Below are positions 97-15,926 of a stretch of DNA of 64,000 nt, one piece after another (position 1 is the stretch's first letter; every line of letters begins with the position of its first letter). The position numbers and the translations under genes are program-made. The stretch covers positions 1 through 64,000 of the forward strand of contig NZ_AP017563.1 of NCBI RefSeq assembly GCF_003967015.1, read 5' to 3'. The notes under the pieces were generated by a model that saw nothing but the letters and a program-made list of their open reading frames with translations, was not told the origin of the DNA and did no database searches. Source of the stretch: Pseudanabaena sp. ABRG5-3. GTDB lineage: Bacteria; Cyanobacteriota; Cyanobacteriia; Pseudanabaenales; Pseudanabaenaceae.

Positions 97-975
97 CTAT
101 TTATTTTCGGTGGGATTGCCAGTGGGAGCATTGATGTTAATAAAGGGTAAAGCTCCATTACTAGACATCACTACTGGAAATTTACCATCCCATTTCTCGA
201 TCGCTTGTTTCTGTAAAATTTCTGGACTCAATGATGACTGCAAAAGTTTTTGCGACTCTGCTTGTCCTTTAGCACGAGCGATCAGTGCTTCTGCATCTTT
301 GGCTGCTTTTTTCGACTCGTAGTCAGCCTTTTGCAATTCCTGTTCTGCGACAATTTTTGCCGAAATTGCTTTTTGCTCGGCAATTTGTTTCTCTTCTGTT
401 GCTTTAGTGAACTCGTCAGACGCTGTGACATTCAAAACTGATAGATCGGTTATCACAATGCCATAAGCCTCTAATCGCTGTTTAGCCTTTATTTCTAGTT
501 CCTGCTTTAGTTCCGTGCGTTCGATCAAATTCTTTTCAAGACTCCTTACGGGAATACTCGCCTTCACAATTTCCTCTAGGACTGGATTGATGATTCTAGC
601 TACCAACTCTTCATTATTCCCAAATTGTTGATAAACTTGTTGGATTTTATCTGGTGAAATTTGCCAATTGAGAGCAACTTTGGTAGTAATTTTCTGTAAA
701 TCCTTAGTACGCGCAGTTCCTTCAACGTCCGTTCGTTGAACACGGATATTTACAACTCTTACTGATGATACAAAAGGAATAATAGGGTGAGTACCTTCGT
801 TTAAGAGAACTTCTTGAGCCTTATTAAAAGTTACAAGAATACCTCGCTCTCCTGTATTGACCACTGCAAAGGATTTAGGAATAACTATAGCCAAAGCCAC
901 AAAAGCTATACCTCCAAACCAATAGCGCTTTTTATTCAATGACCAAAGGGATTTACCCAGCTTAATGCTAAACAT
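97..975 (-). CDS. SPFH/prohibitin family membrane protein
   Basis: About 292 residues. An N-terminal membrane segment (about residues 12-34, YWFGGIAFVALAIVIP) is followed by the SPFH fold, seen in VVNTGERGILVTF and the EGTHPIIPF motif typical of prohibitins. A charged Ala/Glu/Lys coiled coil (about 185-240) and the family tail LSPEILQKQAIEKWDGKFP follow. Such proteins form ring-like scaffolds on membranes and are linked to membrane protein quality control; the partner here is unknown. I start at the ATG at 975, which follows a GGGGG stretch; an upstream TTG at 987 would add four residues. A paralogue lies at 54161-55051. The tail PTGNPTENK is unusual for the family. Confidence 0.9.
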   Translation of the reverse strand: MFSIKLGKSLWSLNKKRYWFGGIAFVALAIVIPKSFAVVNTGERGILVTFNKAQEVLLNEGTHPIIPFVSSVRVVNIRVQRTDVEGTARTKDLQKITTKVALNWQISPDKIQQVYQQFGNNEELVARIINPVLEEIVKASIPVRSLEKNLIERTELKQELEIKAKQRLEAYGIVITDLSVLNVTASDEFTKATEEKQIAEQKAISAKIVAEQELQKADYESKKAAKDAEALIARAKGQAESQKLLQSSLSPEILQKQAIEKWDGKFPVVMSSNGALPFININAPTGNPTENK

Positions 976-1090
976 AATAACCCCCAAGTTTTCTAAATGG
1001 ATGTTTACTAATTACTTCTCAACCTAAAAAACAAAAAATACGCATCTTGTAATATAAGTTTACAAATAACTACTAGGGAGATTGAAATAA

Positions 1091-1322
1091 TTACGGTGAT
1101 TGACAAGAGAGGAGTTTTGACTGTGGATAGTTAGCTTGTAGCTATTTTTATCTTTCTTGATTCGATCGCCCATAGGTATTGAGCGATCGCACAGTATCTG
1201 GATTAGGAATTGTCGATAAAATTTCTTGTCCAATATCGCTAAAGGTGATCACTTCCTTAATTTGGAGATCACGATTTTGATGTTGCTGGTAAAGATCGCT
1301 GTAAGCAGGGGCGATCGCTTCA
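1091..1322 (-). pseudogene. Decayed C-terminal copy of the 125-aa protein at 3058-3435
   Basis: Reading the minus strand in one frame gives text nearly identical to the last 75 or so codons of the gene at 3058-3435: YQQHQNRDLQIK, then VITFSDIGQEILSTIP, then VRSLNTYGRSNQER. Two in-frame stops follow (TAA where the intact copy has Leu, TAG where it has Gln), then LQANYPQSKLLSCQSP and a stop at 1091. The N-terminal half with the membrane anchor is missing. This is a truncated duplicate with two nonsense changes. It sits just past the 3' end of the gene at 1323-2492. Confidence 0.88.
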
Positions 1323-2492
1323 TCACTCTCCTCCTCCTCCCTCTCTATCTCTGTTCGTATTTTTAGATAATACTAATAAAAATAAAGCTACAAACTGTTT
1401 GAGATTAAAACCACTATTACTATGAATCTCAATGATCCGTCCATATACATCTGACTGAACATTCATATCACTAATGGCAGTTATATGACCAGCGCGATCA
1501 TATTGGATATCCATATCACCGATGGAAATGATCTGTCTGTCAGAATTATATTGGACAGCCATATCACCAATGAAATCAATGCAAGGTCTCAATTGCCAAA
1601 ACTGTGGGCTATAGGTAATGGATATATCACCTATGGAAATAATTTGTTTTGAGGAAACTAATTGTCCAATTTTTCCATACTCGACAGGAATATCTCCAAT
1701 AGAAGAGATATTACGAATACCCCACGTATTGGTCTTATCACTATATTTGACAGGTACATTGCCAATAGCGATGATATAGCCCATACAGTAGATAATTTGG
1801 CAAGATTGAAACTTTTTAGTAGAGCTATTGGTTAGTGTATCTTGAATGTTGAGAGTCTCATTTACTAAGCCTAAAAAAGATTGAATTAAATTAACAGTAT
1901 CATAAGCTTTTTGATACCATTTACTAGGAAAATTTATATCTAAGTCTACATAAACTGAAACATTTTTACCTGAGTTCAAAATTAAATCAACTGGTTCTAT
2001 AGGAACTTCATTAAATGAGAATCCCCCTCTACTGATAACAACATCTATAATTTCACTAAGAGGATATTCGGAAACCTTTTTATCTAATAATCCCTTTGTT
2101 TCAATTATTAATTGATTCATAGTCTTATCAAAGATAAAAGTTCTAGTATGAAGTACTTTTAACAACATATACAAACTAATGGTCATCCAAAATACAAACC
2201 AAACTAAACTTAACCATTCTAAATATTGATCGGTTGTAGTGAATTTAAGTTGATACATTGACTCATTTTGTCTAATCTCAACACCTATTAGCTGAGTTCG
2301 TCTTGTTTGGATAACAACTTTTTGACAAAAATTAGGATCTATTTCACTACGTTTACAGGTAAATGAGTTGACTTCTAGGAAAAAACTTCCTACAAAAAAA
2401 CCAATTATAGGAAATACCGTAGAAGTCAACCATAATCCTATTGGTCTACTATAGATGACTAGTCTTTTAGAACTGTTTTCTATTATTTTCAT
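1323..2492 (-). CDS. Two-helix membrane protein with C-terminal IGD-type repeats
   Basis: 389 residues, not a family I can name. Membrane segments lie near residues 18-40 and 88-112, separated by a polar stretch with paired cysteines (FTCKRSEIDPNFCQK). After the second helix comes TFIFDKTMNQLIIETKG and a basic/acidic domain, a layout shared with the proteins at 7246-8121 and 8336-9250. The unique part is about residues 235-365: six degenerate repeats of about 20 residues with cores such as IGNVPVKY, IGDIPVEY, IGDISITY, IGDMAVQY, IGDMDIQY and ISDMNVQS. Regular alternation suggests a beta-solenoid or stacked hairpins (inference). The start has an AAGGA ribosome site. The gene is 22 bp downstream of the lipoprotein gene, so the two are probably co-transcribed. 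The tail NRDREGGGGE is low complexity. Confidence 0.75.
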   Translation of the reverse strand: MKIIENSSKRLVIYSRPIGLWLTSTVFPIIGFFVGSFFLEVNSFTCKRSEIDPNFCQKVVIQTRRTQLIGVEIRQNESMYQLKFTTTDQYLEWLSLVWFVFWMTISLYMLLKVLHTRTFIFDKTMNQLIIETKGLLDKKVSEYPLSEIIDVVISRGGFSFNEVPIEPVDLILNSGKNVSVYVDLDINFPSKWYQKAYDTVNLIQSFLGLVNETLNIQDTLTNSSTKKFQSCQIIYCMGYIIAIGNVPVKYSDKTNTWGIRNISSIGDIPVEYGKIGQLVSSKQIISIGDISITYSPQFWQLRPCIDFIGDMAVQYNSDRQIISIGDMDIQYDRAGHITAISDMNVQSDVYGRIIEIHSNSGFNLKQFVALFLLVLSKNTNRDREGGGGE

Positions 2493-2514
2493 AATATTGA
2501 TTCCTTGTTAAAGA

Positions 2515-2937
2515 CTATTGAATGAGGCTGTATTCTACGACTCTTGCTTGATTACCTTCGATGATAAATACAAATTCTTCGGAGACACTGACTTGAGAAA
2601 ACTCAGTGGTATATTTTAGCGTTGCTAAAGTTTCAGTAGGGGTAGAATTGATGTTATATCCTAATAAGCTAGAGCTTTTTACTTGCCCAAATTGTTTGTG
2701 GATAGTTTTGCAAGCATTGATTGCATCATTTTTTCCATGTTTTTGTTTGAAGCGATTATCTGCTTGTTCATAGATTTCATTACATTGTTGAGCATTAAGA
2801 CGATTGTGGAATTCTACAACTGCATTTTCAGCAATCTCCTTACCTTTCATAAGTTGATCCATCAAGCCACAGGATGATATTAAAATTGTTGCTAGGATCG
2901 GAGCAAAAAGAGCGCGAGATAATTGTCTATACATATT
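2515..2937 (-). CDS. Small predicted lipoprotein
   Basis: 140 residues from the ATG at 2937, which is preceded by GGAGAA at good spacing; an upstream start at 2961 would add eight residues. The N-terminus is a lipoprotein signal: a short basic start, a hydrophobic run and the lipobox LISSCG. The mature part (about residues 30-140) has a helical region NAVVEFHNRLNAQQCNEIYEQ and then mixed beta strands, recalling the cystatin/NTF2-like DUF3887/DUF4019 lipoproteins in size and pattern; that assignment is tentative. It leads a probable two-gene unit with the repeat protein downstream. It is likely anchored to the periplasmic face of a membrane. Function is not known. Confidence 0.72.
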   Translation of the reverse strand, partial: NMYRQLSRALFAPILATILISSCGLMDQLMKGKEIAENAVVEFHNRLNAQQCNEIYEQADNRFKQKHGKNDAINACKTIHKQFGQVKSSSLLGYNINSTPTETLATLKYTTEFSQVSVSEEFVFIIEGNQARVVEYSLIQ

Positions 2938-3057
2938 GAACTTTCTCCAAACCTGACTCAAAATATTGCAACTGACTGAATCCTTATATTTCTCGACATC
3001 ATCTTGTTATGCAGCAGTTCATCATTTTGGAGATTAGATGGTTTGTGAGATCGCACA

Positions 3058-3435
3058 CTACTGAGATTGACAAGAGAGAAGTTTAGCCTGTGGGTAAGTA
3101 GATTGCAGTTGTTTTAGACGCTCTTGATTCGATCGCCCATAGGTATTGAGCGATCGCACAGCATCGGGAGCAGGAATCGTTGATAAAATCTCTTGTCCAA
3201 TATCGCTAAAGGTAATCACTTGCTTGATTTGCAGGTCGCGATTTTGGTGTTGTTGGTAGATTTCATCATAGCTGCGAGCGATCGCTTGCCATTGATCTTG
3301 AGGACAAAAACTACGATCGATGAGAACTGTAATTTGCGAAGGGGGTAAGGCAAAGGCGATCGCACCGCCCACAATTCCAAATCCTAACCATCCCAAACCA
3401 AGAGTAGTTAAAAGTTTACGATTAAGTTTATTCAT
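3058..3435 (-). CDS. Short anchored periplasmic protein of unknown function
   Basis: 125 residues. An uncleaved or cleavable hydrophobic N-terminus (LGLGWLGFGIVGGAIAFALP, about 14-33) is followed by a soluble domain of about 90 residues. That domain begins TVLIDRSFCPQDQW and ends LLSCQSQ, so the two cysteines could form a disulfide. The opening strand with an Asp (VLIDRS) followed by helical text faintly recalls a small Rossmann or vWA-like fold, but no MIDAS motif is present. It lies directly downstream of the lipoprotein gene at 3487-5289 on the same strand and may be co-transcribed. A broken copy at 1091-1322 shows that the locus has been duplicated. Confidence 0.7.
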   Translation of the reverse strand: MNKLNRKLLTTLGLGWLGFGIVGGAIAFALPPSQITVLIDRSFCPQDQWQAIARSYDEIYQQHQNRDLQIKQVITFSDIGQEILSTIPAPDAVRSLNTYGRSNQERLKQLQSTYPQAKLLSCQSQ

Positions 3436-3458
3436 AGATTTTTAAAATATAGATATGG

Positions 3459-3483
3459 TAAGGATAAGCGCCGCTTATCCTTA
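3459..3483. terminator. Short hairpin between two minus-strand genes
   Basis: A 12-bp inverted repeat (TAAGGATAAGCG with its complement, one-base loop) lies in the 51-bp gap between the vWA lipoprotein and the 125-aa gene. No U-tract follows, so it may be an RNA stability or attenuation hairpin rather than a strict terminator. Confidence 0.45.
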
Positions 3484-3486
3484 TAT

Positions 3487-5289
3487 TTACAGGTTAGTTT
3501 GAAAGATTTCTTTCAGAATATTTTGGACATTTTTAGGTGTTCCAGTTTGTACTGTAGATTCTCGCAAAGAAGCGATCGCCGCCAGTTCTTTCTGATTGAC
3601 TTCGCCATAAGCGATCGGATAAATCCTCACATCGCTATAACGCATTAAGTCTTTTACCTCATCAAATTTCAAACCGACATTTGCTTCTCCATCGGTCAGC
3701 AGTAGTAAACGAAAAATGCCTGAATTGTCAGATTTGTAGCGGTCAGCAAGCTGTCCTAACCCAACAATAACAGCATCATACAAAGCGGTCTCACCGTCAG
3801 CTTGGAGATCTTCGATCGCTGATAGCAGACGCTTGTGCTGCAAAGTATCAAAGGGTGCAAGATTAACCACATTCTTAACGCGATTACTAAAAGTGATCAA
3901 CCCAACTTGATTGCCAGCATTAATTTCATTAGTAGCACTCCGCAAGCCTTCTTTAACAGCCTTGATCCGTTCTCCACTCATTGAGCCGCTCGTATCAATG
4001 ACGATCTCCATGTACACAGTACGTTTGCCGTCTTTTCTTTGCTTCCAAAACGAGAGTGCATATTTCAAAACTTCGCCATTGGGAACAGGTGGAAAATCTT
4101 TGGCTTTGAGATAGTTTGTTGTCTCAAAACCTTTTTGCTGAGCCAAAGCTTGCATTGCTTCGGATGTTGCGAATTTGGCAAACTCTCTTAATGCTTCTTC
4201 TTGTTCAGGACTGTTCCAGTCAAACCCGACCAGTGGACTACTATGAGGAACGCCAAAAGGAACATAAGCCAGATTTTCAAACCCCGCAAGGCGCTTTAAA
4301 GTCGCATAGCTTTGATATTCCATGATGAAGGCTCCTAATTTGGGAGACTGAGGATCGCGAATAAAAATTTGTTTTAGATCCAAATAGGTCAGTGTCGTTA
4401 AAGAAACTTGCTTTTGAAAAGCATCGAAGACGGAACTTATCTGGGGAGACTGAAGATCAGAGATCGTTAAAGGGTTTTTATCTTTTATATGTCCTGAGGC
4501 TCTCCAAAAAAGCGAATAAAGAAGATTAAGGGCAGGAGATCCAGCATAGGGATTGGCATAGCCAACTTTAAGCTTGCCTGCGAGAATCGCATCTAGAACA
4601 ATATCAAAATTGACTTCTCGATTAGCCGCCAGACTTTGATAAATCTGAGGTTGTAAAACTAAGACGGCATGGTTGGGAACTAGCATTGGTGAGATTACTT
4701 TTGTTTGAATTCCTTCATTTTTAAGTAACTCAAGCCACAGATTAGTTGTTGGTGTATAGCCAACAGGCTTGACAGCTCTAGAAGCTATTATTTTTGCGCC
4801 TAACCCAGAGGGAATATTGCGTATTCCAACTTGAATCACTTTACCCGATGCCAATCTTAGCTTCTTTGCATTGAATGCTTCAGCAACATCAACTAGCCAG
4901 CGCTCATCTGGGCGATCGCCACTTGCTTTTTCAGCGGAACTAAAAATCTCAATGTAAGAAATATTTGGATCGTTTGATGGTTGCGCTCCATAGAGAGGAA
5001 AATTTTCAACTTTGGGAGGAGGTTCTTGAATTTGTCCAATCTCAATTTTGGATGCTAGTTCATCAGATATTAGTGCTTGTTCAACTTTAATCTTAGGGAG
5101 GTAATAGTCTTGAATAGCTTTGTAGGCAGACTCTGTAGAATCAATTTTTGTTACTCCGCAAGCTACAAGGATACTGAGACAAAGACCACAAATAAACCAA
5201 ATCCATATTTTTCGGTTCCAAGTCTGGACAAAGCGAGAAAATTTAAAGCTATTTTCTAATTTTTTCTTTATGAATATCCTATTTAGCAT
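3487..5289 (-). CDS. Lipoprotein fusing a solute-binding fold to a vWA domain
   Basis: 600 residues. After an unusually long basic N-terminus comes the lipobox LSILVACG with the lipid-bearing Cys at residue 44. Residues about 50-395 have the pattern of an extracellular binding protein (GIRNIPSGLGAKIIASRAVK, YANPYAGSPALNLLYSLFW, AYVPFGVPHSSPLVGFDW). Residues about 420-595 are a von Willebrand A domain with a complete MIDAS: DTSGSMSG, a Thr in the NAGNQVGLITFS region, and LLLTDGEANVG. Such chimeric proteins are known in cyanobacteria and are thought to sense or bind extracellular ligands; the ligand is not known. The start has AGAGG at good spacing. A tandem paralogue follows at 5394-7178, sharing the C-terminus KEIFQTNL. 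Confidence 0.85.
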   Translation of the reverse strand: MLNRIFIKKKLENSFKFSRFVQTWNRKIWIWFICGLCLSILVACGVTKIDSTESAYKAIQDYYLPKIKVEQALISDELASKIEIGQIQEPPPKVENFPLYGAQPSNDPNISYIEIFSSAEKASGDRPDERWLVDVAEAFNAKKLRLASGKVIQVGIRNIPSGLGAKIIASRAVKPVGYTPTTNLWLELLKNEGIQTKVISPMLVPNHAVLVLQPQIYQSLAANREVNFDIVLDAILAGKLKVGYANPYAGSPALNLLYSLFWRASGHIKDKNPLTISDLQSPQISSVFDAFQKQVSLTTLTYLDLKQIFIRDPQSPKLGAFIMEYQSYATLKRLAGFENLAYVPFGVPHSSPLVGFDWNSPEQEEALREFAKFATSEAMQALAQQKGFETTNYLKAKDFPPVPNGEVLKYALSFWKQRKDGKRTVYMEIVIDTSGSMSGERIKAVKEGLRSATNEINAGNQVGLITFSNRVKNVVNLAPFDTLQHKRLLSAIEDLQADGETALYDAVIVGLGQLADRYKSDNSGIFRLLLLTDGEANVGLKFDEVKDLMRYSDVRIYPIAYGEVNQKELAAIASLRESTVQTGTPKNVQNILKEIFQTNL

Positions 5290-5393
5290 CTGTTAAACCT
5301 CTTACTTTTCTTAAATCAAAAGATTTGAAGATAGATTTTTCTTATCGCTATCCAATACTCAAAATCAATATTGGATAGCAATAACTTGCTTCA

Positions 5394-7178
5394 CTAAAGA
5401 TTTGTTTGAAAGATTTCCTTGAGAAGATTCTGGACATTTTGAGGTGTACCGATTTGAACTGTAGACTCGCGTAAAGCTGCGATCGCTGCAAGCTCTTTCT
5501 GATTGACCTCGCCATAGGCGATCGGATAAATCCGTACATCGCTAAACTTCATTAGATCCTTGACCTCTTCAAATTTCAGTCCTGTAGTTACTTCACCATC
5601 GGTTAGTAATAGCAAGCGAAATACACCCGTAGGATCGGCTTTGCGGCGTTCCATGAGAGGGGCTAAACCTGCGATCGCACCATCATAAAGGGCAGTATTG
5701 CCATCAGCCTCAAGAGCATCGATCGCTGCCAGTAATCGCTTATGTTGCAAAGCATCGAAGGGAAATAGATTGACTATATTTTTGACGCGATCGCTAAAAG
5801 TGATCAAACCAACCTGATTACCAGCATTGATTTCTTTGGTAGCAATTCGCAAACCTTCTTTAAGCGATTGCATTCTCGCACCAGCCATCGAGCCACTGGT
5901 ATCAATCACCATCATCATATAAACGGTGCGCCCACCATCTTTGCGCTGTTTCCAGAAAGTGAGTGCAGTTTTCAGGACTTCTCCTGAAGGGGTAGCAGGT
6001 AAGTTCTTGCGTTTGATATATTCCAATACTTCAGGAGTGGCAAACGCAAGTTTCTGCATAGGTTCAGAAGTAGCAAATTCAGCGAACTTTTGTAGTGCTT
6101 CTTGCTGTTCGGGAGTATTCCAATCAAAGCCAACTAAAGGTGCATTATGAGGCATTCCAAAAGGAACATAGGCAACCTGCTCAAATCCTGGAAGTTTTTT
6201 CAGGGCTGTAAAAGCTACTCCATCAAGGGGAAAGGCTTGCATTTTTTGTTGATCGCGTACAAAGATATCTTTTAGTTCTAGAGTTGTCACTGATGTGACA
6301 ATCACTTGCTTCTGAAAAGCATCAAATACAGAACTAACTTGTGGAACCTTTAAGTCTTGTACTGTTAGTGGCTGCTTGTCGCGATCGTGTCCTGCGGCTT
6401 GCCAAAGAATTGTATAGAGAAGGTTGAGCGCAGTTGAACTCGAATAGGGATTGGGATAGCCAATAGACAACTTGCCTGTAGTAATAGCATCAAGTAGGCG
6501 CTCAAAAGTTACTTCCCCGCTTTTAGCTAATTCTTGGTAAGTGTCACCTCTCACTGCAAAGCCAGTTCCATTGGCTTGTAAGACTGGGGCGATCTCTTTT
6601 GTGGGAATACCATCGCTTTTGAGGATTTCGACCCACAAATCGTTGGATGGACTGAAACCAGCAGGTTTAATCGTTTTAGATGCAATCAACCTTTCGCCTA
6701 AACCAGAGGCAATATTCCGAATCCCGACTCGGATTACCTGACCCGATTTTAATGTAACGTTTTTAGCATTGAAAGCTTCAGCAACGTCTACGAGCCATCG
6801 CTCATCTTGTCTTTGAGCATTAGCTTTTTCCGCAGAGCTAAAAATCTCAACATAAACTTGTTTTGCATCATTGGTCGGCTGAGCGCCATACAAAGGAAAG
6901 TCTTCAATCTTTGGTAATGGTTCTTTAATGCTGTCAGTGGAATATCTCGCTGCTGCCGCATCAGAAACTAATGCTTGTTCAATTTTAATTTTAGGCAGAA
7001 AATCACTTTGAATTGCTTTGCTGGCTGTCTCAAAAGAGTCAATTTTTATCGTTCCACAAGCTACAATCAATGTCATGCTCAACCCGATCACAAACCAAAG
7101 TGATCTCAGACTTTTGAGGTTTTTGAATAGGCGATCGCGTAGCTTATTTGAAATTTTATTGATGATATTGGCAAACAT
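5394..7178 (-). CDS. Second lipoprotein with solute-binding and vWA domains
   Basis: 594 residues, the upstream tandem copy of the gene at 3487-5289. The lipobox MTLIVACG places the lipidated Cys at residue 41. The binding fold spans about 50-390 (GIRNIASGLGERLIASKTIK, YPNPYSSSTALNLLYTILW, VPFGMPHNAPLVGFDWNTP). The vWA domain spans about 410-590 with MIDAS residues in DTSGSMAG and LLLTDGEVTTG. The two copies diverge most in the ligand-facing half of the binding domain and least in the vWA domain, as if they bind different ligands but share a partner (inference). The 104-bp gap between them would allow co-transcription. No strong ribosome site was seen. Confidence 0.85.
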   Translation of the reverse strand: MFANIINKISNKLRDRLFKNLKSLRSLWFVIGLSMTLIVACGTIKIDSFETASKAIQSDFLPKIKIEQALVSDAAAARYSTDSIKEPLPKIEDFPLYGAQPTNDAKQVYVEIFSSAEKANAQRQDERWLVDVAEAFNAKNVTLKSGQVIRVGIRNIASGLGERLIASKTIKPAGFSPSNDLWVEILKSDGIPTKEIAPVLQANGTGFAVRGDTYQELAKSGEVTFERLLDAITTGKLSIGYPNPYSSSTALNLLYTILWQAAGHDRDKQPLTVQDLKVPQVSSVFDAFQKQVIVTSVTTLELKDIFVRDQQKMQAFPLDGVAFTALKKLPGFEQVAYVPFGMPHNAPLVGFDWNTPEQQEALQKFAEFATSEPMQKLAFATPEVLEYIKRKNLPATPSGEVLKTALTFWKQRKDGGRTVYMMMVIDTSGSMAGARMQSLKEGLRIATKEINAGNQVGLITFSDRVKNIVNLFPFDALQHKRLLAAIDALEADGNTALYDGAIAGLAPLMERRKADPTGVFRLLLLTDGEVTTGLKFEEVKDLMKFSDVRIYPIAYGEVNQKELAAIAALRESTVQIGTPQNVQNLLKEIFQTNL

Positions 7179-7245
7179 AAATTTGTTATCACTAGTTAAA
7201 AATTTAGTATTTTCGTCGATGATAATGTAATGTAATTTAAAATGT

Positions 7246-8121
7246 TTAGGGTGGAATTTCTATTGTTTTATAGGGTTCAAGTTGCAGGAATTCACAAATG
7301 AAACTAGCAATTTTATGTGCTTCATTTAGCTCTACATTATTTGAAACCATAAGGTTGATAGACAACAATTTTGAGTTACCATAAAGAGAAATTCTTATAT
7401 CTTGAAAAATTAGTTCACCATCCGAATAATTTTTTTTCTCCTGCAAATAAATTTTTTTAATTTTATGAAGTGGGATATTAGTAGGTGGATTATTCGGTAA
7501 GAATTTCCAAAAAGCTTTCTGAATTATTAATTCTCCATTGCTTTTATCAAAAATATAATTTACAGAGCTAAAAATATTTATAAACGAACCATCCATACGA
7601 CAAATTTTAAATGTTAAAATCCCCATCAAAAAACATATTAACTTTAATGGAATCCACTGATAATCCATAACAATATAAAGTTCAGTTACTGTAGGATTTT
7701 TCAAGAATGTATTTAATCTAGCTTCTTGTTCGTGTACAATTTCTTTATGCGTGGAAAGAATAAATTCTTGTCTAGTTGTTTTAATTATTAGTAAAGCTTC
7801 ATATTCATCTGAGTAATATGGCATAATTTTAGCTTCTTTGATAATATTTCCGTTTCTAGTAGAAAATAATTTTTCAACTTTCCCATAAAAATTTGATCCA
7901 GTTAGAATGCAAGAAATTTCTTCTTCACTTCGATAGCAATTTAATCTTGCACGATCTAATACATTGGATCTATATATTAGAAGTATTAAAATAACACCAA
8001 AAATAAAAATTTCATAGATAGGATATTGGATGAGTCGAATTAAAGACTTTATACCCTCAGAAATTGATGGATTTTGAATGATTAGTTTTTTAGTTGTGTA
8101 ACTAATAATTTTTATAGACAT
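7246..8121 (-). CDS. Two-helix membrane protein, paralogue of 8336-9250
   Basis: 291 residues, family not recognised. Membrane segments lie at about 35-50 (IYEIFIFGVILILLIY) and 165-180. Between them is a lumenal or periplasmic domain with two cysteines around NCYRSEEEISC. After the second helix comes NYIFDKSNGELIIQK and a basic strand-rich domain ending KTIEIPP. The architecture matches 8336-9250 and the first 220 residues of 1323-2492. The conserved phrase F-D-K-x-x-x-x-L followed by IPLHKIKKIYLQ looks like a bacterial PH-like or stress-band domain, which I cannot confirm. Base composition is very AT-rich. The likely ribosome site is GAGTGAAG. Confidence 0.7.
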   Translation of the reverse strand: MSIKIISYTTKKLIIQNPSISEGIKSLIRLIQYPIYEIFIFGVILILLIYRSNVLDRARLNCYRSEEEISCILTGSNFYGKVEKLFSTRNGNIIKEAKIMPYYSDEYEALLIIKTTRQEFILSTHKEIVHEQEARLNTFLKNPTVTELYIVMDYQWIPLKLICFLMGILTFKICRMDGSFINIFSSVNYIFDKSNGELIIQKAFWKFLPNNPPTNIPLHKIKKIYLQEKKNYSDGELIFQDIRISLYGNSKLLSINLMVSNNVELNEAHKIASFICEFLQLEPYKTIEIPP

Positions 8122-8335
8122 AACTTCACTCTTCTTTAAACTTCGTTTGGTTAAAAAGTAATTTGGTTTTGATTAATCGCAAACCAAAGCAATCATAGAG
8201 TTTTGAACTTTTTGAATAAGCGATCACAGAATATTCTTATACTATTATTAGCAAACATAACTTTCACTTTCATTGTTTGATAAAGTAATCTTTTTTGAAA
8301 AAATATAATGATGTTTCAGTATTTTTGAAAAATTT

Positions 8336-9250
8336 TCAGGGTGGAATCTCTATATGTTCAATTTCTAAGAAAGTGCAGATTATAGAAGTAATTTCACTTA
8401 CTTCTGTAATACTATTCAAAAAATCAATGGATAAAAAAGGAGAATTTGAGTCGTCAACAAAAATAATTTTGTGGCTTTCATATTTACCACCATTTTCTAA
8501 ATAGATTTTAGCAATTCTTTTAATTGGGACTTTTAACAAACTTTTTCTACTAATTTCCAAACTTGTTAATTCTTCAGTTGCCTTATCAAAAACAAAGGCA
8601 TAAATTTTTATACTAAGAATATCTCTAATACAACGGTATAATATCGAAAAAGTTATCAAATCCCAAAAACCAGTAAAAAACACAAGAAATATAATCCTGT
8701 TAATTGGATTTGATGATGCTCTAGACTCAATATATACCCTAGTCTCCAATGAGTTATTAAAGAAGGAGTTTAGTTGTAAAATTTGGTTTTCAACTATATC
8801 TTTTTGAGAGTAAAGAGTAACTTCTTTACTATTTGTAGAGATTACTAACAAAGTATTATCTTCCCCTTCAATACCAATAGGAAAAAGTTTAGTTTTAACT
8901 GATATTAATCCTTCTTTTTCAGAGGAAATAACTTTTTCTACGTTATCATATAGGCTTCTTCCAGTAACACTACAAATTATCTCATTTGAATATCGGTTAC
9001 AAATTAGTTTTGATGTGTTTAATATAGAAAGTGAATCAACAAATGAATTAACACACCACAATGGCAGAAGAAAAGCAATAGTGATATGAGGAGTACAAAA
9101 AATGATTCTATGTATCGTCTCAAAAAAAGTTGGATTTCTAATAATTAATTTATCTCCAATATTGTGATAAAGAGATTTACTTAGTATCCATATAAGCAAA
9201 TGTATTTTTTGTCTAAAAATATTCATAGATTTACTAATGTTAATAGCCAT
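8336..9250 (-). CDS. Two-helix membrane protein, paralogue of 7246-8121
   Basis: 304 residues. Hydrophobic segments lie at about 50-68 (FCTPHITIAFLLPLWCV) and 185-215. The intermembrane cysteines (LICNRYSNEIICSVTG) match the neighbour's NCYRSEEEISC. The second half has FVFDKATEELTSLE, then VPIKRIAKIYLENGGK, and ends HIEIPP, almost the same C-terminus as the next gene. The pair is a tandem duplication that has diverged strongly. Both are AT-rich and separated by about 210 bp without a gene. A GAAGAAG site precedes the start. Function is unknown. Membership in the block with the vWA lipoproteins and the CHAT protein suggests an envelope-associated role. Confidence 0.68.
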   Translation of the reverse strand: MAINISKSMNIFRQKIHLLIWILSKSLYHNIGDKLIIRNPTFFETIHRIIFCTPHITIAFLLPLWCVNSFVDSLSILNTSKLICNRYSNEIICSVTGRSLYDNVEKVISSEKEGLISVKTKLFPIGIEGEDNTLLVISTNSKEVTLYSQKDIVENQILQLNSFFNNSLETRVYIESRASSNPINRIIFLVFFTGFWDLITFSILYRCIRDILSIKIYAFVFDKATEELTSLEISRKSLLKVPIKRIAKIYLENGGKYESHKIIFVDDSNSPFLSIDFLNSITEVSEITSIICTFLEIEHIEIPP

Positions 9251-9264
9251 AACTAGATCTTCTT

Positions 9265-11079
9265 CTAATTTTCGTTTGCTTGCAAAGTAATTTTATTTGT
9301 ATCGATCGCTAATCTCAACTGAGCAGGAAGCTCCATTTTGAGATTAGAACTACTGCGATCTAGCGAAAGTAATAGAACTTGATCCTGTAAATTTTGTAAA
9401 AGCTCGTGAGTAGCTTGGAGGCGATCGTAACTTGCCTGTAAACGTCGTTGGGCAACCACCCGATAGTTCTCAGACTTCACCTGACCGATAGTAGCGATCG
9501 CATCAGCAACCTGTCCCGCTAAATCCAAAACAGTAATCAAAGTCTCTAAGATATCCACCGTCATATCTGGTTCTTTCTCAACTATTTTCTCAGCATAAAC
9601 ATGCATCTCCCTCGCCCATGCCTTCGCTCTCCGCCACTGCATCCCAGTAGCTAGAGACTTGCGTTCTAATCCATCCAGTTTTGAAGCAAATACATAGCGA
9701 TCGAGCAAATTATTTTCATTCAACCACGCAAATTCTTTCTTAACTTGCCATGCCCACGCACCAAAGACGATCGCGGCGATCGCCCCACCACTCGCAATCA
9801 CAATCGGACGCGGACGCAGTATCGCCACAAAGCAAGCCAAACCCAAAGCTGTTCCTGCCAAAAGCATATAGGTTTGGGGCAATTGGAATAGCTTTGTCCT
9901 TTGATTTCTTCGACTAGGTGGTTGTGGAGATGACGCTTCTATCATTGGCGATACTACTGGTACTGATTGTTTTGGTGGTGCTGGTACGGGTATAGTCACT
10001 TTCTCATCCTTTGGAATTGACCATGTTAGAGGTGTTTCTGCGGGGTTTTGACAGATAATCGGTAGCCAAGTTGCACAGGGAAAGCGATCTTCAATACCTT
10101 GCAAGCGCTCCCTTGCTCGACGGACTGATAAATAGCAAGAGGTTCCACTTGAGAAATCTTCGAGAAAGTAACGCAAAAACTTTTGTGCTACTTCATCGGG
10201 GATCGGCTCTCGCATAACGATTACTTGGGGAATATGTAAATCAAATAGCGATCGCGCCAAGCCCAAACCATCACAGGAGTTAAAAATCGCTAATCTTAAC
10301 CCGTTGGATACCGCAGTTCTCAGGGCATAGCGCAACTGTTCCATCCTTAGACTTTCCGTTTCATTGATATAGATACGACCAATATCCTCTTGAGTAGAGC
10401 TATGCCCTGCAAAAAAGAGAATATCCCATTGCTGTTGCCATAGCTCATCGTTAAGTTGCTGGCGCTTTGGTTCTACTAACAGAGTCACCTCTGCATTTGG
10501 TAATTGCTCTAGCATGGAGCGATCAGCATCTATATCGATACCTTCACTATTGCCGAGAATTACGAGAATGCGAATCTTGTCAGAATGTTTTTGGGTCGGG
10601 TCGATACTGGAGTATGCAGGTGCAGCGATCGCAATTTCGGACTTGGTAAAGCGGCGATCGAATAAATCCCACAAATGCCAAGGCATCTTCTGTAAATAGG
10701 GATTTCCCGATTGCAGCAGTACTCGCACTTCATCGGTTCTATAGATATTATCGGAGACTAATTCTCTTGCAGGAAGAAAAGACTGCGATCGCAACCATTG
10801 ATTGAGATGTTCTGCAAGTTTTTCGGCAGCATCATAACAATCTTCGAGAAAGGAGACATTAGTAACAGCATTAGCATCTGCTGATAGTCTCGTGGTTACA
10901 CCTATTTTCAGATAGAAAGATTGCCATGCGTCATATAGCAAAGGTAACTCTTTTGATGGAGGTAAATTTGCAGCAATTTCTGATGATGGAAGTGCGCCTT
11001 CTTCACCAATCTGAATTGTTACTGCGAAGCCCTGCTCGAAATTACCGTCATTAAATTTAAGGGTTACTAGCTTCCCCAT
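9265..11079 (-). CDS. CHAT-domain protein with C-terminal membrane region
   Basis: 604 residues from the ATG at 11079, which has GGAG 11 bases upstream and gives the usual N-terminus VTLKFNDGNFEQGF; a GTG at 11124 would add 15 residues. Residues about 1-120 are the cyanobacterial CHAT N-terminal region. About 165-355 is the caspase-like CHAT fold, with the catalytic pair visible as His226 in ILFFAGHSS and Cys269 in FNSCDGLGLA, so it should be an active protease. A Pro-rich linker (about 360-395) leads to two hydrophobic segments (about 405-450) and a helical C-terminus. CHAT proteases in bacteria cleave partner proteins in defence or signalling systems; the target here is not known. Confidence 0.85.
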   Translation of the reverse strand: MGKLVTLKFNDGNFEQGFAVTIQIGEEGALPSSEIAANLPPSKELPLLYDAWQSFYLKIGVTTRLSADANAVTNVSFLEDCYDAAEKLAEHLNQWLRSQSFLPARELVSDNIYRTDEVRVLLQSGNPYLQKMPWHLWDLFDRRFTKSEIAIAAPAYSSIDPTQKHSDKIRILVILGNSEGIDIDADRSMLEQLPNAEVTLLVEPKRQQLNDELWQQQWDILFFAGHSSTQEDIGRIYINETESLRMEQLRYALRTAVSNGLRLAIFNSCDGLGLARSLFDLHIPQVIVMREPIPDEVAQKFLRYFLEDFSSGTSCYLSVRRARERLQGIEDRFPCATWLPIICQNPAETPLTWSIPKDEKVTIPVPAPPKQSVPVVSPMIEASSPQPPSRRNQRTKLFQLPQTYMLLAGTALGLACFVAILRPRPIVIASGGAIAAIVFGAWAWQVKKEFAWLNENNLLDRYVFASKLDGLERKSLATGMQWRRAKAWAREMHVYAEKIVEKEPDMTVDILETLITVLDLAGQVADAIATIGQVKSENYRVVAQRRLQASYDRLQATHELLQNLQDQVLLLSLDRSSSNLKMELPAQLRLAIDTNKITLQANEN

Positions 11080-11431
11080 AATGGCGATCGCTCCATCAAA
11101 AATATCTACAGACCCATCATGCACATTTTATTTAGATTTGTCATTAAATCACCTTTGTAAAGATAAAAAGCAAATTAAAAATTGTTGCTTGACTACAAAC
11201 AAATAGCGCTAGAGATCGCCAAGTTATGCAGTCCAAATTCAACCATTTACCTACTCATCGGACTTCAATAGCTAACTTACGCAGTAATTAACAAAACTTA
11301 AACTTTATTGCATAGCTCTTCACGAACTGGAAATACTTAGAATAAACTTGGACTATTCAAGCTAGACATCCCCACCTATCGAGCTAACTATTTGTCAGTA
11401 AATCTACACCATAATTTGGAGGCTTAATACC
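11080..11431. other. Divergent intergenic region without a gene
   Basis: AT-rich spacer between the leftward CHAT gene and the rightward YiaA/B gene. It must hold both promoters. I see no clear operator, hairpin or open frame. A GGAGG ribosome site lies at about 11418, just before the rightward gene. Confidence 0.5.
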
Positions 11432-11755
11432 ATGCGTTTGAATTCAATCGATCCCATGCTGAATCAAAAAGATACGACTGCTTGGATTTTTCAAGTTTAT
11501 GCAGCTTTTGTCATCTCTACTGGATCTTTTGCAGCTAGCCTCTATTTACTGCCTATGGACAATGTCGTTAGAAGTCAACTGGGGATTAGCTATGTGTTTT
11601 CTATCAGTGCCAGTGTTTCTCTGACCAAGACCATTCGCGATAATCATGAAGCGAGGAAACGCCAAGCACTGATTGATGCAATCATCACCGATAAAGTTAT
11701 TACTGAAAATCATCCTCTCATCGATTTACTTGAAAACTCCAAAATCTCAAAGTAA
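11432..11755 (+). CDS. YiaA/YiaB-type two-helix inner membrane protein
   Basis: 107 residues. Two membrane segments at about 17-40 (WIFQVYAAFVISTGSFAASL) and 46-68 are joined by the short turn LPMDNVVRSQLG, the layout of the YiaAB two-helix family (PF05360). The segment SYVFSISASVSLTKTIRDNHE is typical of cyanobacterial members. A basic helix follows (ARKRQALIDAIITDK). The ATG has a GGAGG site. It stands alone between a divergent CHAT gene and a hairpin. The biochemical role of the family is not established. Confidence 0.82.
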   Translation: MRLNSIDPMLNQKDTTAWIFQVYAAFVISTGSFAASLYLLPMDNVVRSQLGISYVFSISASVSLTKTIRDNHEARKRQALIDAIITDKVITENHPLIDLLENSKISK

Positions 11756-11778
11756 TCGTTATTCAATCCATTAATTAA

Positions 11779-11827
11779 AGTATAGAGATAGCCTCTAGGT
11801 AATTGCGTGATAGCTATCTCTATACTT
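11779..11827. terminator. Terminator hairpin between convergent genes
   Basis: 15-bp arms (AAGTATAGAGATAGC and its complement) with a loop of about 19 bases. It lies between the ends of the rightward YiaA/B gene and the leftward 65-aa gene, so it can serve both. Confidence 0.7.
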
Positions 11828-11834
11828 AGTTAAA

Positions 11835-12032
11835 TCAGTCAATAATCCAAAATCCATTCTTTCGCCAATATTGTTCATTGAGGGCATCTTTTAGCTGACT
11901 ATCGGAAATCTCACCCTTGTCAAGCAGCAATTCCCCAAGTCTTTTACCAGTAACGTCTACAAGATTTAAGTCTTGGTCTAGCTGTGCTTGTGATATTAGC
12001 TTTTTACGGACTAGGATTGTTCCAAGTTTCAT
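11835..12032 (-). CDS. Small MshEN/GspE-N-like protein
   Basis: 65 residues from the ATG at 12032, which has GAAGAG upstream; the start at 12050 would add six residues. The sequence KLGTILVRKKLISQAQLDQD, then GKRLGELLLDKGEISDSQL, is the doubled motif of the MshEN/GspE N-terminal domain (L-G-x-x-L-x-x-x-G-x-I-x-x-x-Q-L). That domain in other bacteria binds cyclic di-GMP or forms the N-terminus of type II secretion and type IV pilus ATPases. Here it is freestanding and very short, so it may be a small regulator, but ligand binding is not shown. Confidence 0.75.
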   Translation of the reverse strand: MKLGTILVRKKLISQAQLDQDLNLVDVTGKRLGELLLDKGEISDSQLKDALNEQYWRKNGFWIID

Positions 12033-12139
12033 AATATTGACTCTCTTCACATGTATCTACAAAAAGTTCCTTTAGTAGTATCTATTTCTGGCATATAACG
12101 GAGTTATGCATTTGAGTAGCTCAGCATAGTTATAAACTC

Positions 12140-12190
12140 AACCCAGACTGTTGTAACACCTGCTATGAGCGTATTACAACAGTCTGGGTT
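12140..12190. terminator. 17-bp perfect hairpin
   Basis: Arms AACCCAGACTGTTGTAA and complement with a 17-base loop, followed on the plus strand by TTTT. It lies in the non-coding stretch upstream of the small MshEN-like gene and next to the MITE at 12255-12392. It could be a terminator or a repeat remnant. Confidence 0.5.
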
Positions 12191-12254
12191 TTAAGTGAAC
12201 TACTTAGCTAATTCTAAGAATTGCCAATACTAGAGATCTCAAAAAGAGTATTTA

Positions 12255-12392
12255 ACTGATGTTACGTGGAACCATCACTCAGTAAGGTAATCGTGTGCAC
12301 AGTAGGGGCGGGTTTAGTCGATAATTCTGGGCTAAAGCAAGATCTATATGCAAAACCCGCCCCTACTTTAGAAACTTCCACGTAACATCAGT
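12255..12392. mobile_element. MITE-like element, copy 1 (138 bp)
   Basis: Bounded by inverted ends ACTGATGTTACGTGGA and its exact complement. Inside is a second inverted pair, GTAGGGGCGGGTTT and AAAACCCGCCCCTAC, around AGTCGATAATTCTGGGC. No coding capacity. A second copy lies at 23999-24146, so this is a dispersed element that was probably moved by a transposase in trans. Its right end stops two bases before the stop codon of the M48 peptidase gene. Confidence 0.82.
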
Positions 12393-12394
12393 AT

Positions 12395-14326
12395 TTAAGA
12401 TTGATAAATCGGTTTTCCTGCAACTTTTTTAATATAGTCCTCTGATATGACATAGGGAAATTCTTGCTTATTAAAACTACGGTCGGAGGCAAACACAGTC
12501 ACGTATGTATAGTTTGCAAACTGAAATTCCTTAACAATTTTCGCGATCGCCTCTTGCTCTTTTTTTAAGGCTCTAGCACTCAAACGAAACCTCGTCCAGA
12601 AGGAATGCCTACATCTAATCGCCATCACATACATCGACTTTTCAGGAAAATGCTTTAAATGCTTGCGAACGAGATAGCAGGCTTCAATATTTTTATAATG
12701 AGACAAGTATTGCTGTAATTTATTAACTTCCTCTTCAGGCAGATCATGAGTAATGAGAGCATCAAAACAGCTTACTGTAGCCCTCTCTTGTTGTGCTAAA
12801 TAAACCTTTTGATAGTGGCTTTCAAGCTTTTGTTGGTACTTCTGCGCTTCATCATTTTTACCCTGTTGTTTGAGAAATCCATAAATTAGTTCACAACTTG
12901 GGATATAAGCATCCACATCACCTTCCATAGCGATTTCCAAATGCTCAATCCCATAAGGATCAGCATCTTCAATTAGGACTCTCCCTAATAGATAATTAGC
13001 CCCAGCATGATCGGCTTGCATCGCAATTACATTCTGAGCAAGCGGCAAAGCGGCACGATCTCCCATAATCTCACTTGTCCAAAAAGCTCGATTCCATGCT
13101 TCCGTGAGATTTAATATTTCCGACTTTGCTTTCTCCTCAATTGCTTGCAATGCAATCTGAAGATCTTGAATATAAGTAAATCGCTCTTTCCATGATGCCT
13201 TAATATTTTCATACCACTGGCGATCAAATTGTTCAGTCAAATGGCTAAGAGCATTACCTAGAAATTGCTGTCCCGCAGTTACAGGGCTAAAACTCATCAC
13301 AGGAAGAGATGATGGATTAAATCCTAAAGCTTGCAAGCGATCGCTTAAGCAAGGATGAGTATCGCTATTATCAGTTTTAATAGCTAGCGATCGCTCTAAT
13401 AATTTGTTATAGGTCTCAGGCTCAATTTCATGTTGTAGCGATTGGGCTAGGTCAGCAAATGGTGCAGTTGGAGGCTCAGGTTGGGTATTTACCTGCTGAC
13501 CAACATTTTTCCAATAGGAATTGTCAATATATTGACTCTTTACTCCAATCAAAATTAAGGCTTCAGCAGTATGCTGATTACCGACTGAGTCAGCCGCACA
13601 GCGATCGGCTTCGTACTCGTTAGCTCTAGCTAAAACGAAGGAATAGGCATTTAATAGCGGTGAGTACCAATTGATAAATCCATAGAAACTCATAGCCACA
13701 ACTTCTGCTCCCTGATCAGTTTGGAAGCGTTCCAAAATCTGCATCCATGTTTTGCGTACTCGATAAATCCATCCAGCAAAGCGACTATGATTGCCCGAAA
13801 GATGTCCAATTTCATGAGCTAATACGGCTTGAAACTGTTCGGGAGACAGGGATTGCATTAAAGGCAACCCAAGAATGAGATAGTTTTTTTGCCAACCAAA
13901 AATTCCTAAACGAGGAACTTGCACTACCGATGCGTTGAACTCTGTAGTTAAAAGAATTTGATGAAATGGTGGAGCTTGTAGAGATTTAGTTAATCGATTC
14001 ACCAATGCAAAAAGTTCGGGAACTTGCTTGCGATTTAGCCGAGTGCCAGTTGGTTCAGGAAAGGTCACCCACAGCGATCGCAAGATCATGAATGCTGGAA
14101 CAATAAAAATTAGCACCAAGTAGATGGTGAATTTATTGATAAAATGCCCATAAATTGCGATCGCACCAATAAAAATAGCCACTCCTAACAAAAGAGCGAT
14201 CGCTACAAAAATGTAAAGATATCCAAACGCCGCTAAAGCTGCTACACGCAGTTTATACATATTGGGATACTGCTGCGAATAGCTCTCTAGTTGTCGTACC
14301 AGTTCGTCAAATTTTTCCTGAGTCAT
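12395..14326 (-). CDS. Membrane-anchored M48 family metallopeptidase
   Basis: 643 residues. Two membrane segments (about 30-58 and 66-86) precede the protease domain. The zinc motif is HEIGH at 171-175 in QAVLAHEIGHLSGNH, and the third ligand lies in RANEYEADRCAAD about 70 residues later, the M48 (HtpX/Ste24-like) signature. The C-terminal half (about 370-600) is helical with TPR-like spacing (NYLLGRVLIEDADPYGIEHL). The family degrades misfolded membrane proteins. The active site should face the cytoplasm by analogy with HtpX. The gene stands alone with the MITE just past its stop. Confidence 0.88.
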   Translation of the reverse strand: MTQEKFDELVRQLESYSQQYPNMYKLRVAALAAFGYLYIFVAIALLLGVAIFIGAIAIYGHFINKFTIYLVLIFIVPAFMILRSLWVTFPEPTGTRLNRKQVPELFALVNRLTKSLQAPPFHQILLTTEFNASVVQVPRLGIFGWQKNYLILGLPLMQSLSPEQFQAVLAHEIGHLSGNHSRFAGWIYRVRKTWMQILERFQTDQGAEVVAMSFYGFINWYSPLLNAYSFVLARANEYEADRCAADSVGNQHTAEALILIGVKSQYIDNSYWKNVGQQVNTQPEPPTAPFADLAQSLQHEIEPETYNKLLERSLAIKTDNSDTHPCLSDRLQALGFNPSSLPVMSFSPVTAGQQFLGNALSHLTEQFDRQWYENIKASWKERFTYIQDLQIALQAIEEKAKSEILNLTEAWNRAFWTSEIMGDRAALPLAQNVIAMQADHAGANYLLGRVLIEDADPYGIEHLEIAMEGDVDAYIPSCELIYGFLKQQGKNDEAQKYQQKLESHYQKVYLAQQERATVSCFDALITHDLPEEEVNKLQQYLSHYKNIEACYLVRKHLKHFPEKSMYVMAIRCRHSFWTRFRLSARALKKEQEAIAKIVKEFQFANYTYVTVFASDRSFNKQEFPYVISEDYIKKVAGKPIYQS

Positions 14327-14413
14327 TAATTGTCACCGTCCACGTTTGAGATCATAAACAACTTTTTCTAAGTACCATTTTTGGTAATCCTAAAAAGGCA
14401 AGGATTTATTGTG

Positions 14414-14450
14414 GTAAGGATGGGCGGCGCTTCGCGCCACCCATCCTTAC
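14414..14450. terminator. GGCGGCGC-type hairpin
   Basis: 17-bp arms with one mismatch around TTC (GTAAGGATGGGCGGCGC). The same hairpin style recurs at 25377-25437 and 3459-3483. It lies immediately beyond the end of the broken gene at 14466-14738 and may have replaced that gene's original 3' end. Confidence 0.6.
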
Positions 14451-14465
14451 CTATTTAGCACTACC

Positions 14466-14738
14466 TCATTTTTTATTGCGATCTGGATTTTTTAAGCGTT
14501 CTGCTTTTAGCAATCGTTCCGCAACATCTCATCGCCCCTCTAACAATTTTTCTAGCTTTTGCTGTAATGGAGCGCATTCAATATCCTCCTACAAATCTTG
14601 CCACCATCGCCGTCAATTCGCTAACCATAAACCTAGCTTTTGTTTCCATCTTAGATGATGGGGACGCGAGAGGATGAGTAACATAATCAATATTACTAAT
14701 ACACAAACAATTAAAAGCAGCCATTCTACAGACACCAT
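14466..14738 (-). pseudogene. Broken small membrane-protein gene with three in-frame stops
   Basis: From the ATG at 14738 a 91-codon frame can be read to 14466. It starts MVSVEWLLLIVCVLVILIML (one membrane helix), continues RPHHLRWKQKLGLWLAN, then TGA, RRWWQDL, TAG, EDIECAPLQQKLEKLLEGR, TGA, DVAERLLKAERLKNPDRNKK and a final stop. The frame and protein-like composition are kept throughout. All three internal stops are one G-to-A change away from TGG. The C-terminus resembles small cyanobacterial proteins whose conserved tail continues beyond NPxR; that tail is absent here and is replaced by a hairpin. I read this as a recently inactivated gene. If intact it would be a bitopic protein of about 90 or more residues. 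Confidence 0.78.
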
Positions 14739-14936
14739 GACATTCCCTAAATGTATGAAGTTTTGCTAATTTCCACTCATTTAGAAGCCCAAAATTAATT
14801 AGAGTAAAAGTCTTATATAAATTTTGCTATAAGTAAAATTTATATAACTATATCTATAGTTCTATTATTATCTAGCTCTCAGCACTCGTAAGTTATACAA
14901 AAGTAAAAAAGTAAATAGGGTATTTAATCGCAATAT

Positions 14937-15926
14937 TCAGATCAGAAAACTCTCAATTACATAGGTTTCAGCAAGTGAGACCTGAACACTAAACCTTTCA
15001 CCAATATTGCCGCTAAATTGAAGCTGTATATAATTGTCGATACTTCTAGCTTGTGTTTGCAGAAAAATATTTTCCGCATCGTCTAAAACTATTAGTTTTA
15101 TAAATTCAGGTAAAAGAATATTGGAGATTGGATACAAAGCTATACGGATCCCCATTTCAAATTCGGAAATTTGAGAAATAGTTATGATTAGACAAACTAA
15201 AGATCCAGACATCTCAAATCCAAGATCTATTAACTTACCTCGCCGTAATTCTGACAGATTAGATGCATTATTATTAAGAGAAGTTGAGATTTCTCTAGTA
15301 CGATAGGCATATCGAGATTGCTTAGCATCTAATAAATTTTCTAACTCTTGCCAGCCCAACTCAAAAACATCTCGCATCCAATTACTGAGATTAGAAATCG
15401 TTTTATTACTGATAGTAGTAACATCTAAATTATTATCAGAAAAGTTTTGAGGAGATTGTTGTAAATTATAGATTGATTCTAATAAATTTTCGATAGGTTC
15501 TAAGCAATCAATAGCAAGGGATTCCGTCGATACTTGTGGCAAAAAGCCTAAAATTGATGCCGATCCCCAGTCTTGATTAAACTGCACAACAACATAACCA
15601 ATTCGATCCACCCACACCTCAGCAGGTACATAGCATACTAACTCACCCGCTAATAGCGATCGACATTCTATCTTTCCTCTTCCCTCAATTTCCAAATCAG
15701 CAATATCTGCACATATCTGTACAAAGGGATTCCAGCAATCGCCAGAATCTAAATTAGAAGCAATACCCATCATTTCTAGGTAATCATGAATTATGAGTAC
15801 TGCCAAGGTATTTTGCCTTACCCTCTCTACCACAGACGGGATTGAATGTTGATCGGCAAGCGATCGCGCAAGGCTATGAGCTTTAGTAGAAATTGGCAAA
15901 GATATCAAACTATCTTCAATATTCAT
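14937..15926 (-). CDS. DUF1822 family protein
   Basis: 329 residues, soluble, with the cyanobacterial DUF1822 layout: an N-terminal helical part, a VPAEVWVDRIGYVVVQF strand region near residue 110, and the diagnostic C-terminal half LRRGKLIDLGFEMSGSLVCL, then IALYPISNILLPEFIKLIVLD, then YIQLQFSGNIGERFSVQVSL. It follows the sigma-like gene by 37 bp on the same strand, so the two are almost certainly co-transcribed. DUF1822 proteins commonly accompany such sigma factors and CHAT proteins in cyanobacteria. A CHAT protein lies 4 kb away here. The biochemical function is unknown. Confidence 0.88.
   Translation of the reverse strand: MNIEDSLISLPISTKAHSLARSLADQHSIPSVVERVRQNTLAVLIIHDYLEMMGIASNLDSGDCWNPFVQICADIADLEIEGRGKIECRSLLAGELVCYVPAEVWVDRIGYVVVQFNQDWGSASILGFLPQVSTESLAIDCLEPIENLLESIYNLQQSPQNFSDNNLDVTTISNKTISNLSNWMRDVFELGWQELENLLDAKQSRYAYRTREISTSLNNNASNLSELRRGKLIDLGFEMSGSLVCLIITISQISEFEMGIRIALYPISNILLPEFIKLIVLDDAENIFLQTQARSIDNYIQLQFSGNIGERFSVQVSLAETYVIESFLI

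Follow-up and report, generated by a model that had tools for sequence, protein, structure and literature searches.

We analysed a window of 64,000 nucleotides from Pseudanabaena sp. ABRG5-3 (NZ_AP017563.1, positions 1-64,000; contig C4 in our analysis) and found that a run of envelope genes at its start is a system of the EACC2-caspase kind (Kaur et al., eLife 2021, PMC8195603), built round a three-part membrane unit that we did not find described in the literature. The unit consists of a lipoprotein with a solute-binding protein (SBP) part and a vWA domain, a small membrane-anchored two-Cys protein (hereafter mini-vWA) and a helical protein with two transmembrane (TM) segments (2TM-helical protein), which in Pseudanabaena is the tail of a caspase-like CHAT protein. 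The initial annotation had listed seven minus-strand genes with an envelope theme at 97-9250; every gene that it named is present on that strand, but the list comes to eight, and the limits were too short, as the run extends across a gap of 14 bp into the CHAT gene (9265-11124), upstream of which an M48 peptidase gene, a DUF1822 gene and a sigma-like gene follow on the same strand. All genes of the run described below lie on the minus strand. The block had also been called undescribed, which may hold for the three-part unit; the DUF1822 and sigma-like genes place the block as a whole in a published caspase-centred class (PMC8195603).

The first part of the unit is encoded by two tandem genes for lipoproteins with binding and vWA domains, as originally read. 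Lipoprotein 1 (5394-7178) is the ancestral copy, orthologous across the genus, while lipoprotein 2 (3487-5289) is an extra tandem copy with 64% identity to it that is present only in the ABRG5-3 genome and absent from the congeners. Their vWA domains matched Pfam at E 1e-15 and 1e-13, and weak solute-binding matches were obtained to SBP_bac_11 (E 1.5e-4) and SBP_bac_8 (E 0.005). The lipobox Cys41 is invariant among 9 homologues, and the metal-ion-dependent adhesion site (MIDAS) of the vWA domain, formed by DTSGS/T495/D527, is invariant as well.

The second part, the two-Cys anchored protein, proved to be real and is encoded at 3058-3435. It comprises a TM segment followed by the motifs DRSxC and LLxC, and residues D40, C44 and C122 are invariant across 17 sequences. 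In its AlphaFold2 model (predicted local distance difference test, pLDDT, 82) one TM helix is joined to a small alpha/beta domain; the best PDB matches found with Foldseek were vWA/integrin I domains, at a best E of only 0.03 (probability 0.99), and a second structural aligner placed VIA at Z 7.8 over 92 residues. These matches are suggestive of a membrane-anchored miniature vWA domain. In its first motif, DRSxC, Cys replaces the second Ser, and the full MIDAS (DxSxS, T, D) is lacking; at the sequence level no match in Pfam or among solved structures was found. A degraded second copy of this gene with two internal stops (1097-1321; profile match E 4.5e-29), which had been missed before, sits between the SPFH gene and the gene at 1323-2492. 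Partial second copies were also observed in genome G020 (L064:14560-14790) and in Pseudanabaena SR411 (L062:19222-19392), and their occurrence in several genomes suggests that part of the unit has been duplicated repeatedly.

The third part is found within the CHAT protein of 619 aa, in which a CHAT domain (E 1e-15) precedes a pair of hydrophobic segments and a C-terminal part that is helical. This 2TM-helical region starts at about residue 400, has no sequence relatives among solved structures and, in other lineages, has homologues encoded by genes of their own. The His and Cys motifs of the CHAT domain (here FFAGH and FNSCDG) are intact in all sequences checked (FFAGH, FNSCD). No paralogue of the 353-aa N-terminal module was detected in this genome, but the module recurs on cyanobacterial plasmids with up to 57% identity and with varying C-termini, namely 2TM-helical in Pseudanabaena, Peripla_BP_6 in Nostocales and Pantanalinema and, according to annotations elsewhere, CHASE2, WD40/WD-repeat, pentapeptide or SBP tails. 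We rejected HetF as an identity for the CHAT protein, since it matches in the caspase segment only and reaches 45.8 bits where the cut-off is 1200; the Nostoc neighbours are likewise CHAT-Peripla_BP_6 proteins and not HetF.

Searches of 386 cyanobacterial genomes tied the three parts to one another. Full-length SBP-vWA relatives are rare, being present in 11 of these genomes scattered over the phylum, to which 25 named loci were added, and profile searches with the mini-vWA and the 2TM-helical protein recovered the same 11 genomes and no others. The chance of two such 11-genome sets coinciding is about 1.6e-21 under the assumption of independent genomes, which these are not fully. Given this identical distribution, the three proteins most likely form one functional unit. 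In genome G046 the two-Cys gene lies on another contig yet is present, which indicates that presence is tied even where position is not. The idea that the families of the block would be linked in other genomes therefore survived the check: the three core families are distributed identically and are adjacent in nearly all cases, and the block is beyond chance in that the same families are linked again elsewhere. The multi-part surface complex that had been proposed is likely, but it is not merely made of the surface genes listed at the time, because its third obligate partner, the C-terminal half of the CHAT protein, lay outside the range considered.

Gene order in other lineages was examined next to these counts. 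In nearly every non-Pseudanabaena locus the gene directly before the vWA gene is a homologue of the C-terminal half of the CHAT protein only (2TM plus helical part), and in most of them the gene directly after it encodes the two-Cys protein; by comparison, 7 of 7 unit-bearing Pseudanabaena genomes have the 2TM-helical protein as the CHAT tail. In Nostoc, Goleter, Drouetiella, Pantanalinema and others, CHAT has its own gene, located 2-5 kb upstream, and the encoded protein includes a TM segment and a Peripla_BP_6 domain. All non-Pseudanabaena named loci that carry CHAT (8/8) have the order sigma, DUF1822, CHAT, 2TM, vWA, two-Cys on one strand, and sigma and DUF1822 genes are also upstream in 4 of 5 named Pseudanabaena loci. 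Among 15 loci whose sequence extends far enough, 8 have a CHAT gene on the same strand no more than 6 kb upstream, where at most about 0.02 per locus would be expected from the 5-41 CHAT genes per genome, although the Nostoc loci among them are related to each other. Other partners also occur: on Stanieria plasmids a trypsin-like protease takes the place of CHAT, an SPFH gene stands beside the unit and the 2TM gene follows the two-Cys gene, and in one Leptolyngbya the gene of an AAA_35-WD40 protein precedes the 2TM gene. Pseudanabaena SR411 and P. frigida have a stand-alone Peripla_BP_6-type gene beside a PspA gene, adjoining the CHAT gene, which indicates that the same parts are fused differently by lineage. 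In SR411 the PspA/IM30-like and stand-alone Peripla_BP_6-type genes lie between DUF1822 and CHAT (L035:3707-5866, the same as L062:4630-6789), and a like pair was seen beside sigma-DUF1822-CHAT on Planktothrix plasmid p1 (L169).

In the window itself, the DUF1822 gene (14937-15926) matches Pfam PF08852 at E 2.3e-67 and is separated by 37 bp from the sigma-like gene (15964-16632). The latter alone has no Pfam family match; a two-sequence profile built with L078:3759 matched a Planktothrix gene annotated as a sigma-70 family sigma factor (E 1.6e-56) and the gene immediately upstream of DUF1822 in many loci, and together with this synteny identifies a sigma-70-like factor of ECF type. In the published EACC2-caspase a constant N-terminal domain and a caspase are followed by C-termini that vary, and genes for an ECF sigma factor and DUF1822 are linked to it (PMC8195603). 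The CHAT gene of the window has a constant module joined to CHAT, a variable C-terminus, linked sigma and DUF1822 genes and the His/Cys motifs, and the CHAT, DUF1822 and sigma-like genes match that system by architecture and context, on which, rather than on an EACC2 alignment, the identity of the N-terminal module was judged.

We give about an even chance to the explanation that the locus encodes a trans-envelope sensor module with control over a sigma factor and over a caspase-like peptidase in the cytosol. The domain make-up points to a topology in which SBP-vWA and mini-vWA would be outside and CHAT inside, with the two TM segments forming a hairpin that has both ends inside. In the periplasm, the lipid-anchored SBP-vWA and the membrane-anchored mini-vWA would form the receiving part, and the two-TM protein with its cytosolic helical domain would relay the state of the complex across the membrane. 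Since this protein is the CHAT tail in Pseudanabaena, binding or damage outside would directly alter peptidase activity inside, and the peptidase would act on targets in the cytosol. Linkage to DUF1822 and sigma-factor genes suggests release of the sigma factor as one result, for stress or counter-invader transcription, possibly ending in cell death, so that transcription, death or both might result, while the accessory EROS-like, SPFH and small lipoproteins described below may aid assembly or membrane placement. These features suggest that the locus is an undescribed outside-in alarm or cell-death trigger. What the analysis shows directly are the domains, the shared distribution of the three parts, the fusion and the gene order with CHAT, DUF1822 and sigma; that the parts assemble into a complex, the direction of the signal, the ligand, proteolysis and sigma release are inferred from these. 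It is possible, if doubtful, that the three-part unit is a portable surface death or alarm receptor, with an integrin-like vWA outside and swappable cytosolic executioners (CHAT, trypsin-like protease, STAND-type protein) that would be joined to it by fusion or gene neighbourhood; if true, this would be a bacterial parallel to extrinsic apoptosis receptors.

Several points weigh against the sensor-module explanation. About half of the loci carry the three-gene unit with no CHAT gene nearby, so that the unit can work either without CHAT or with an unlinked partner. The genomes behind the co-occurrence counts are related by descent, and within the genus the counted genes are also physically linked. 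Lastly, the CHAT protein is a caspase-like peptidase by prediction, its active site being read from the sequence motifs.

The remaining genes of the block behave as accessories. These are an SPFH (HflC/prohibitin-like) gene at 97-987, correctly named before (Band_7, E 5.8e-32), a small lipoprotein gene at 2515-2961 that was likewise borne out and is DUF4019/NTF2-like (DUF4019 E 3e-5, marginally below the curated cut-off), and genes for two-helix membrane proteins. Their distribution was counted in 26 Pseudanabaena congeners, 7 of which have the unit. The specific SPFH orthologue is present in 6 of these 7 and in 0 of the 19 others; the two-helix PHb/c proteins (6/7), PHa (5/7) and the small lipoprotein (4/7) were not found in any congener without the unit, with P values for association with the unit from 3e-5 to 2e-3. 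The two-helix proteins, small lipoprotein and SPFH protein thus track the unit within Pseudanabaena, and their restriction to the vWA-bearing genomes of the genus makes a multi-part complex likely. Physical linkage may explain much of this confinement, which is why we call them accessories and not core. The recurring paralogues, from which a complex had been deduced, are lineage-specific accessories in 0-3 copies. Vertical descent was rejected as the source of the within-genus co-occurrence, because on a cysK gene tree 6 changes are needed, at least 4 of them forced by well-supported branches, so that the unit is patchy and not confined to one clade. For the accessories, joint transfer of linked genes is possible.

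A two-helix family of three members had been proposed, of which the proteins encoded at 7246-8121 (copy b) and 8336-9250 (copy c) are clear relatives (31.5% identity over 295 aa, E 3e-28), whereas the protein at 1323-2492 is only remotely supported (BLAST E 0.05-0.15; profile-profile E 1.5e-4 with probability 51 for a match spanning TM2 and the FDK region). A C-x-R-x(n)-C loop motif is common to all three. The AlphaFold2 model of copy b (pLDDT 76; predicted TM-score, pTM, 0.50) has the arrangement TM-PH-TM-PH and matched double-PH proteins in Foldseek, and a second aligner placed human EROS first (Z 11.4, root-mean-square deviation 4.6, 154 of 164 EROS residues; next row 8.7). From this model an EROS-like fold, with two TM helices and a PH domain, is predicted for the two-helix proteins; they have no match to the Ycf4 or EROS Pfam families at E up to 1 and no sequence match to known families. 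The 1323-2492 protein carries, at residues ~230-350, an array of ISIGDMxIQY-form repeats, which probably form beta structure, and had a weak PADLOC match to a 2TM effector (E 0.006); PADLOC returned no relevant match for the window proteins or the additional proteins. In genome G014 one EROS-like gene is split into two adjacent frames and is apparently decaying (L040:11027-12066). Small membrane proteins between the CHAT and 2TM genes in Drouetiella, Goleter and the metagenome-assembled genome L073 were not counted as two-helix homologues (profile E 0.001, probability 21), nor were two from Pantanalinema (0.14-0.25). In L073 (8539-10014) the 2TM-helical gene apparently carries an N-terminal fusion to a small membrane protein that has a Cys-loop-Cys motif and whose relation to the two-helix family is only weakly supported.

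These accessories bear on a different explanation, in which SPFH, M48, PspA and EROS-like proteins would maintain membrane complexes as an envelope quality-control or membrane-stress complex, and CHAT would be a further quality-control protease. The presence of SPFH in 6/7 unit-bearing congeners and beside the unit in Stanieria, of M48 upstream in several congeners and of PspA with a Peripla_BP_6-type gene beside CHAT in two would agree with it, as would the predicted EROS-like fold, EROS being a chaperone (PMC9767466). We nevertheless regard it as unlikely, since SPFH, M48, PspA and the PH proteins are missing from most non-Pseudanabaena loci, many of which have sigma-DUF1822-CHAT, and the patchy distribution and swapped partners (CHAT, trypsin-like, AAA_35-WD40) better fit signalling or conflict systems. 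The SBP_bac_11 and SBP_bac_8 matches, the Peripla_BP_6 domain on the split CHAT protein and the linked sigma factor could instead speak for a nutrient or ion sensor, whose SBP half would bind a solute and whose sigma factor would induce uptake genes, with the peptidase performing ordinary regulated proteolysis; this is rather improbable, as the collected loci show no transporter or metabolic gene that recurs beside the unit in different lineages and the unit is rare and patchy. A vWA force transducer driven by proton-motive force, in which the mini-vWA would move and the 2TM protein would act as motor, is hinted at by the pairing of a membrane-tethered vWA protein with an adjoining small multi-TM protein whose helical domain is cytosolic, but it is very improbable and disfavoured. 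The motor-linked vWA class is marked by a transpore-helix Asp or an SHLS-type TM together with a TolQ-like motor gene, and without TolR it requires a conserved Asp (PMC12204202), whereas 20 of 21 mini-vWA TM segments have no acidic residue; the partner, with its two TM segments, gave no Pfam match to TolQ/ExbB.

Further genes surround those of the sensor module. The M48 (HtpX-like) membrane metallopeptidase gene (12395-14326; Peptidase_M48 E 2.9e-15) is a probable accessory; three other congeners (L063, L064, L065) likewise have it upstream of CHAT. A small protein of the form KLGxxLxxKxLIS...LGELLLxKGxIS, which we presume to resemble the MshEN c-di-GMP-binding domain, is encoded at 11835-12050 (minus strand) and recurs at L169:3042-3239, L037:5914-6075 and L066:6902-7063, adjoining sigma/DUF1822/CHAT genes in Planktothrix and one congener. 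Large primase/helicase-like and ParB/ParA-like genes, judged by eye, are located at 31764-34964 and 36364-38323, so that C4 is possibly a plasmid or chromid. A replicon of either type would agree with the patchiness of the unit; a PLSDB search did not find close plasmid relatives of the window. In the stretch 57048-59339 the contig also carries a second copy of cysK with 77% identity to the one on C1, next to what look like a serine acetyltransferase gene and a gene for an Rrf2-type regulator; closer relatives are present in only about half of the congeners.

Several known systems resemble parts of the locus. Bacterial proteins that NCBI names 'substrate-binding and VWA domain-containing' likewise have an SBP part and then a vWA domain, with distant Variovorax matches at 24% identity, but the cyanobacterial family is a separate clade (at least 45% identity within) with fixed partners. 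The vWA-MoxR ternary (VMAP, iSTAND) conflict systems (PMC7159879) also combine vWA and peptidase in multi-gene signalling sets of multicellular bacteria; the vWA domain here is part of an exported lipoprotein with a solute-binding domain and not of a cytosolic cochaperone, and no MoxR-type gene was found in 97-16632. Among the accessory membrane proteins, the predicted fold is shared with EROS/CYBC1 and its orthologue Ycf4 (PMC5379978), in which two TM helices are joined to a PH fold, but in the two-helix proteins a further PH domain, which contains Cys, is inserted between the helices. The closest architecture is that of the likewise cyanobacterial EACC2-caspase, with its N-terminal module and CHAT/caspase, variable and often membrane-spanning C-terminus, ECF sigma and DUF1822. 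These systems are predicted to sense via their variable C-termini; we found no published partner outside the cell, and the description (PMC8195603) names no vWA lipoprotein, mini-vWA or 2TM-helical tail. Unlike the EACC2-caspase as published, the tail here is obligately partnered with a periplasmic vWA unit, which exists also without CHAT. The locus supplies a specific outside partner, the vWA lipoprotein and mini-vWA, never present without the membrane tail in the 386 genomes, and with this tail fused to a caspase-like protein in one lineage, activation of a bacterial caspase at the membrane becomes testable in a small gene set.

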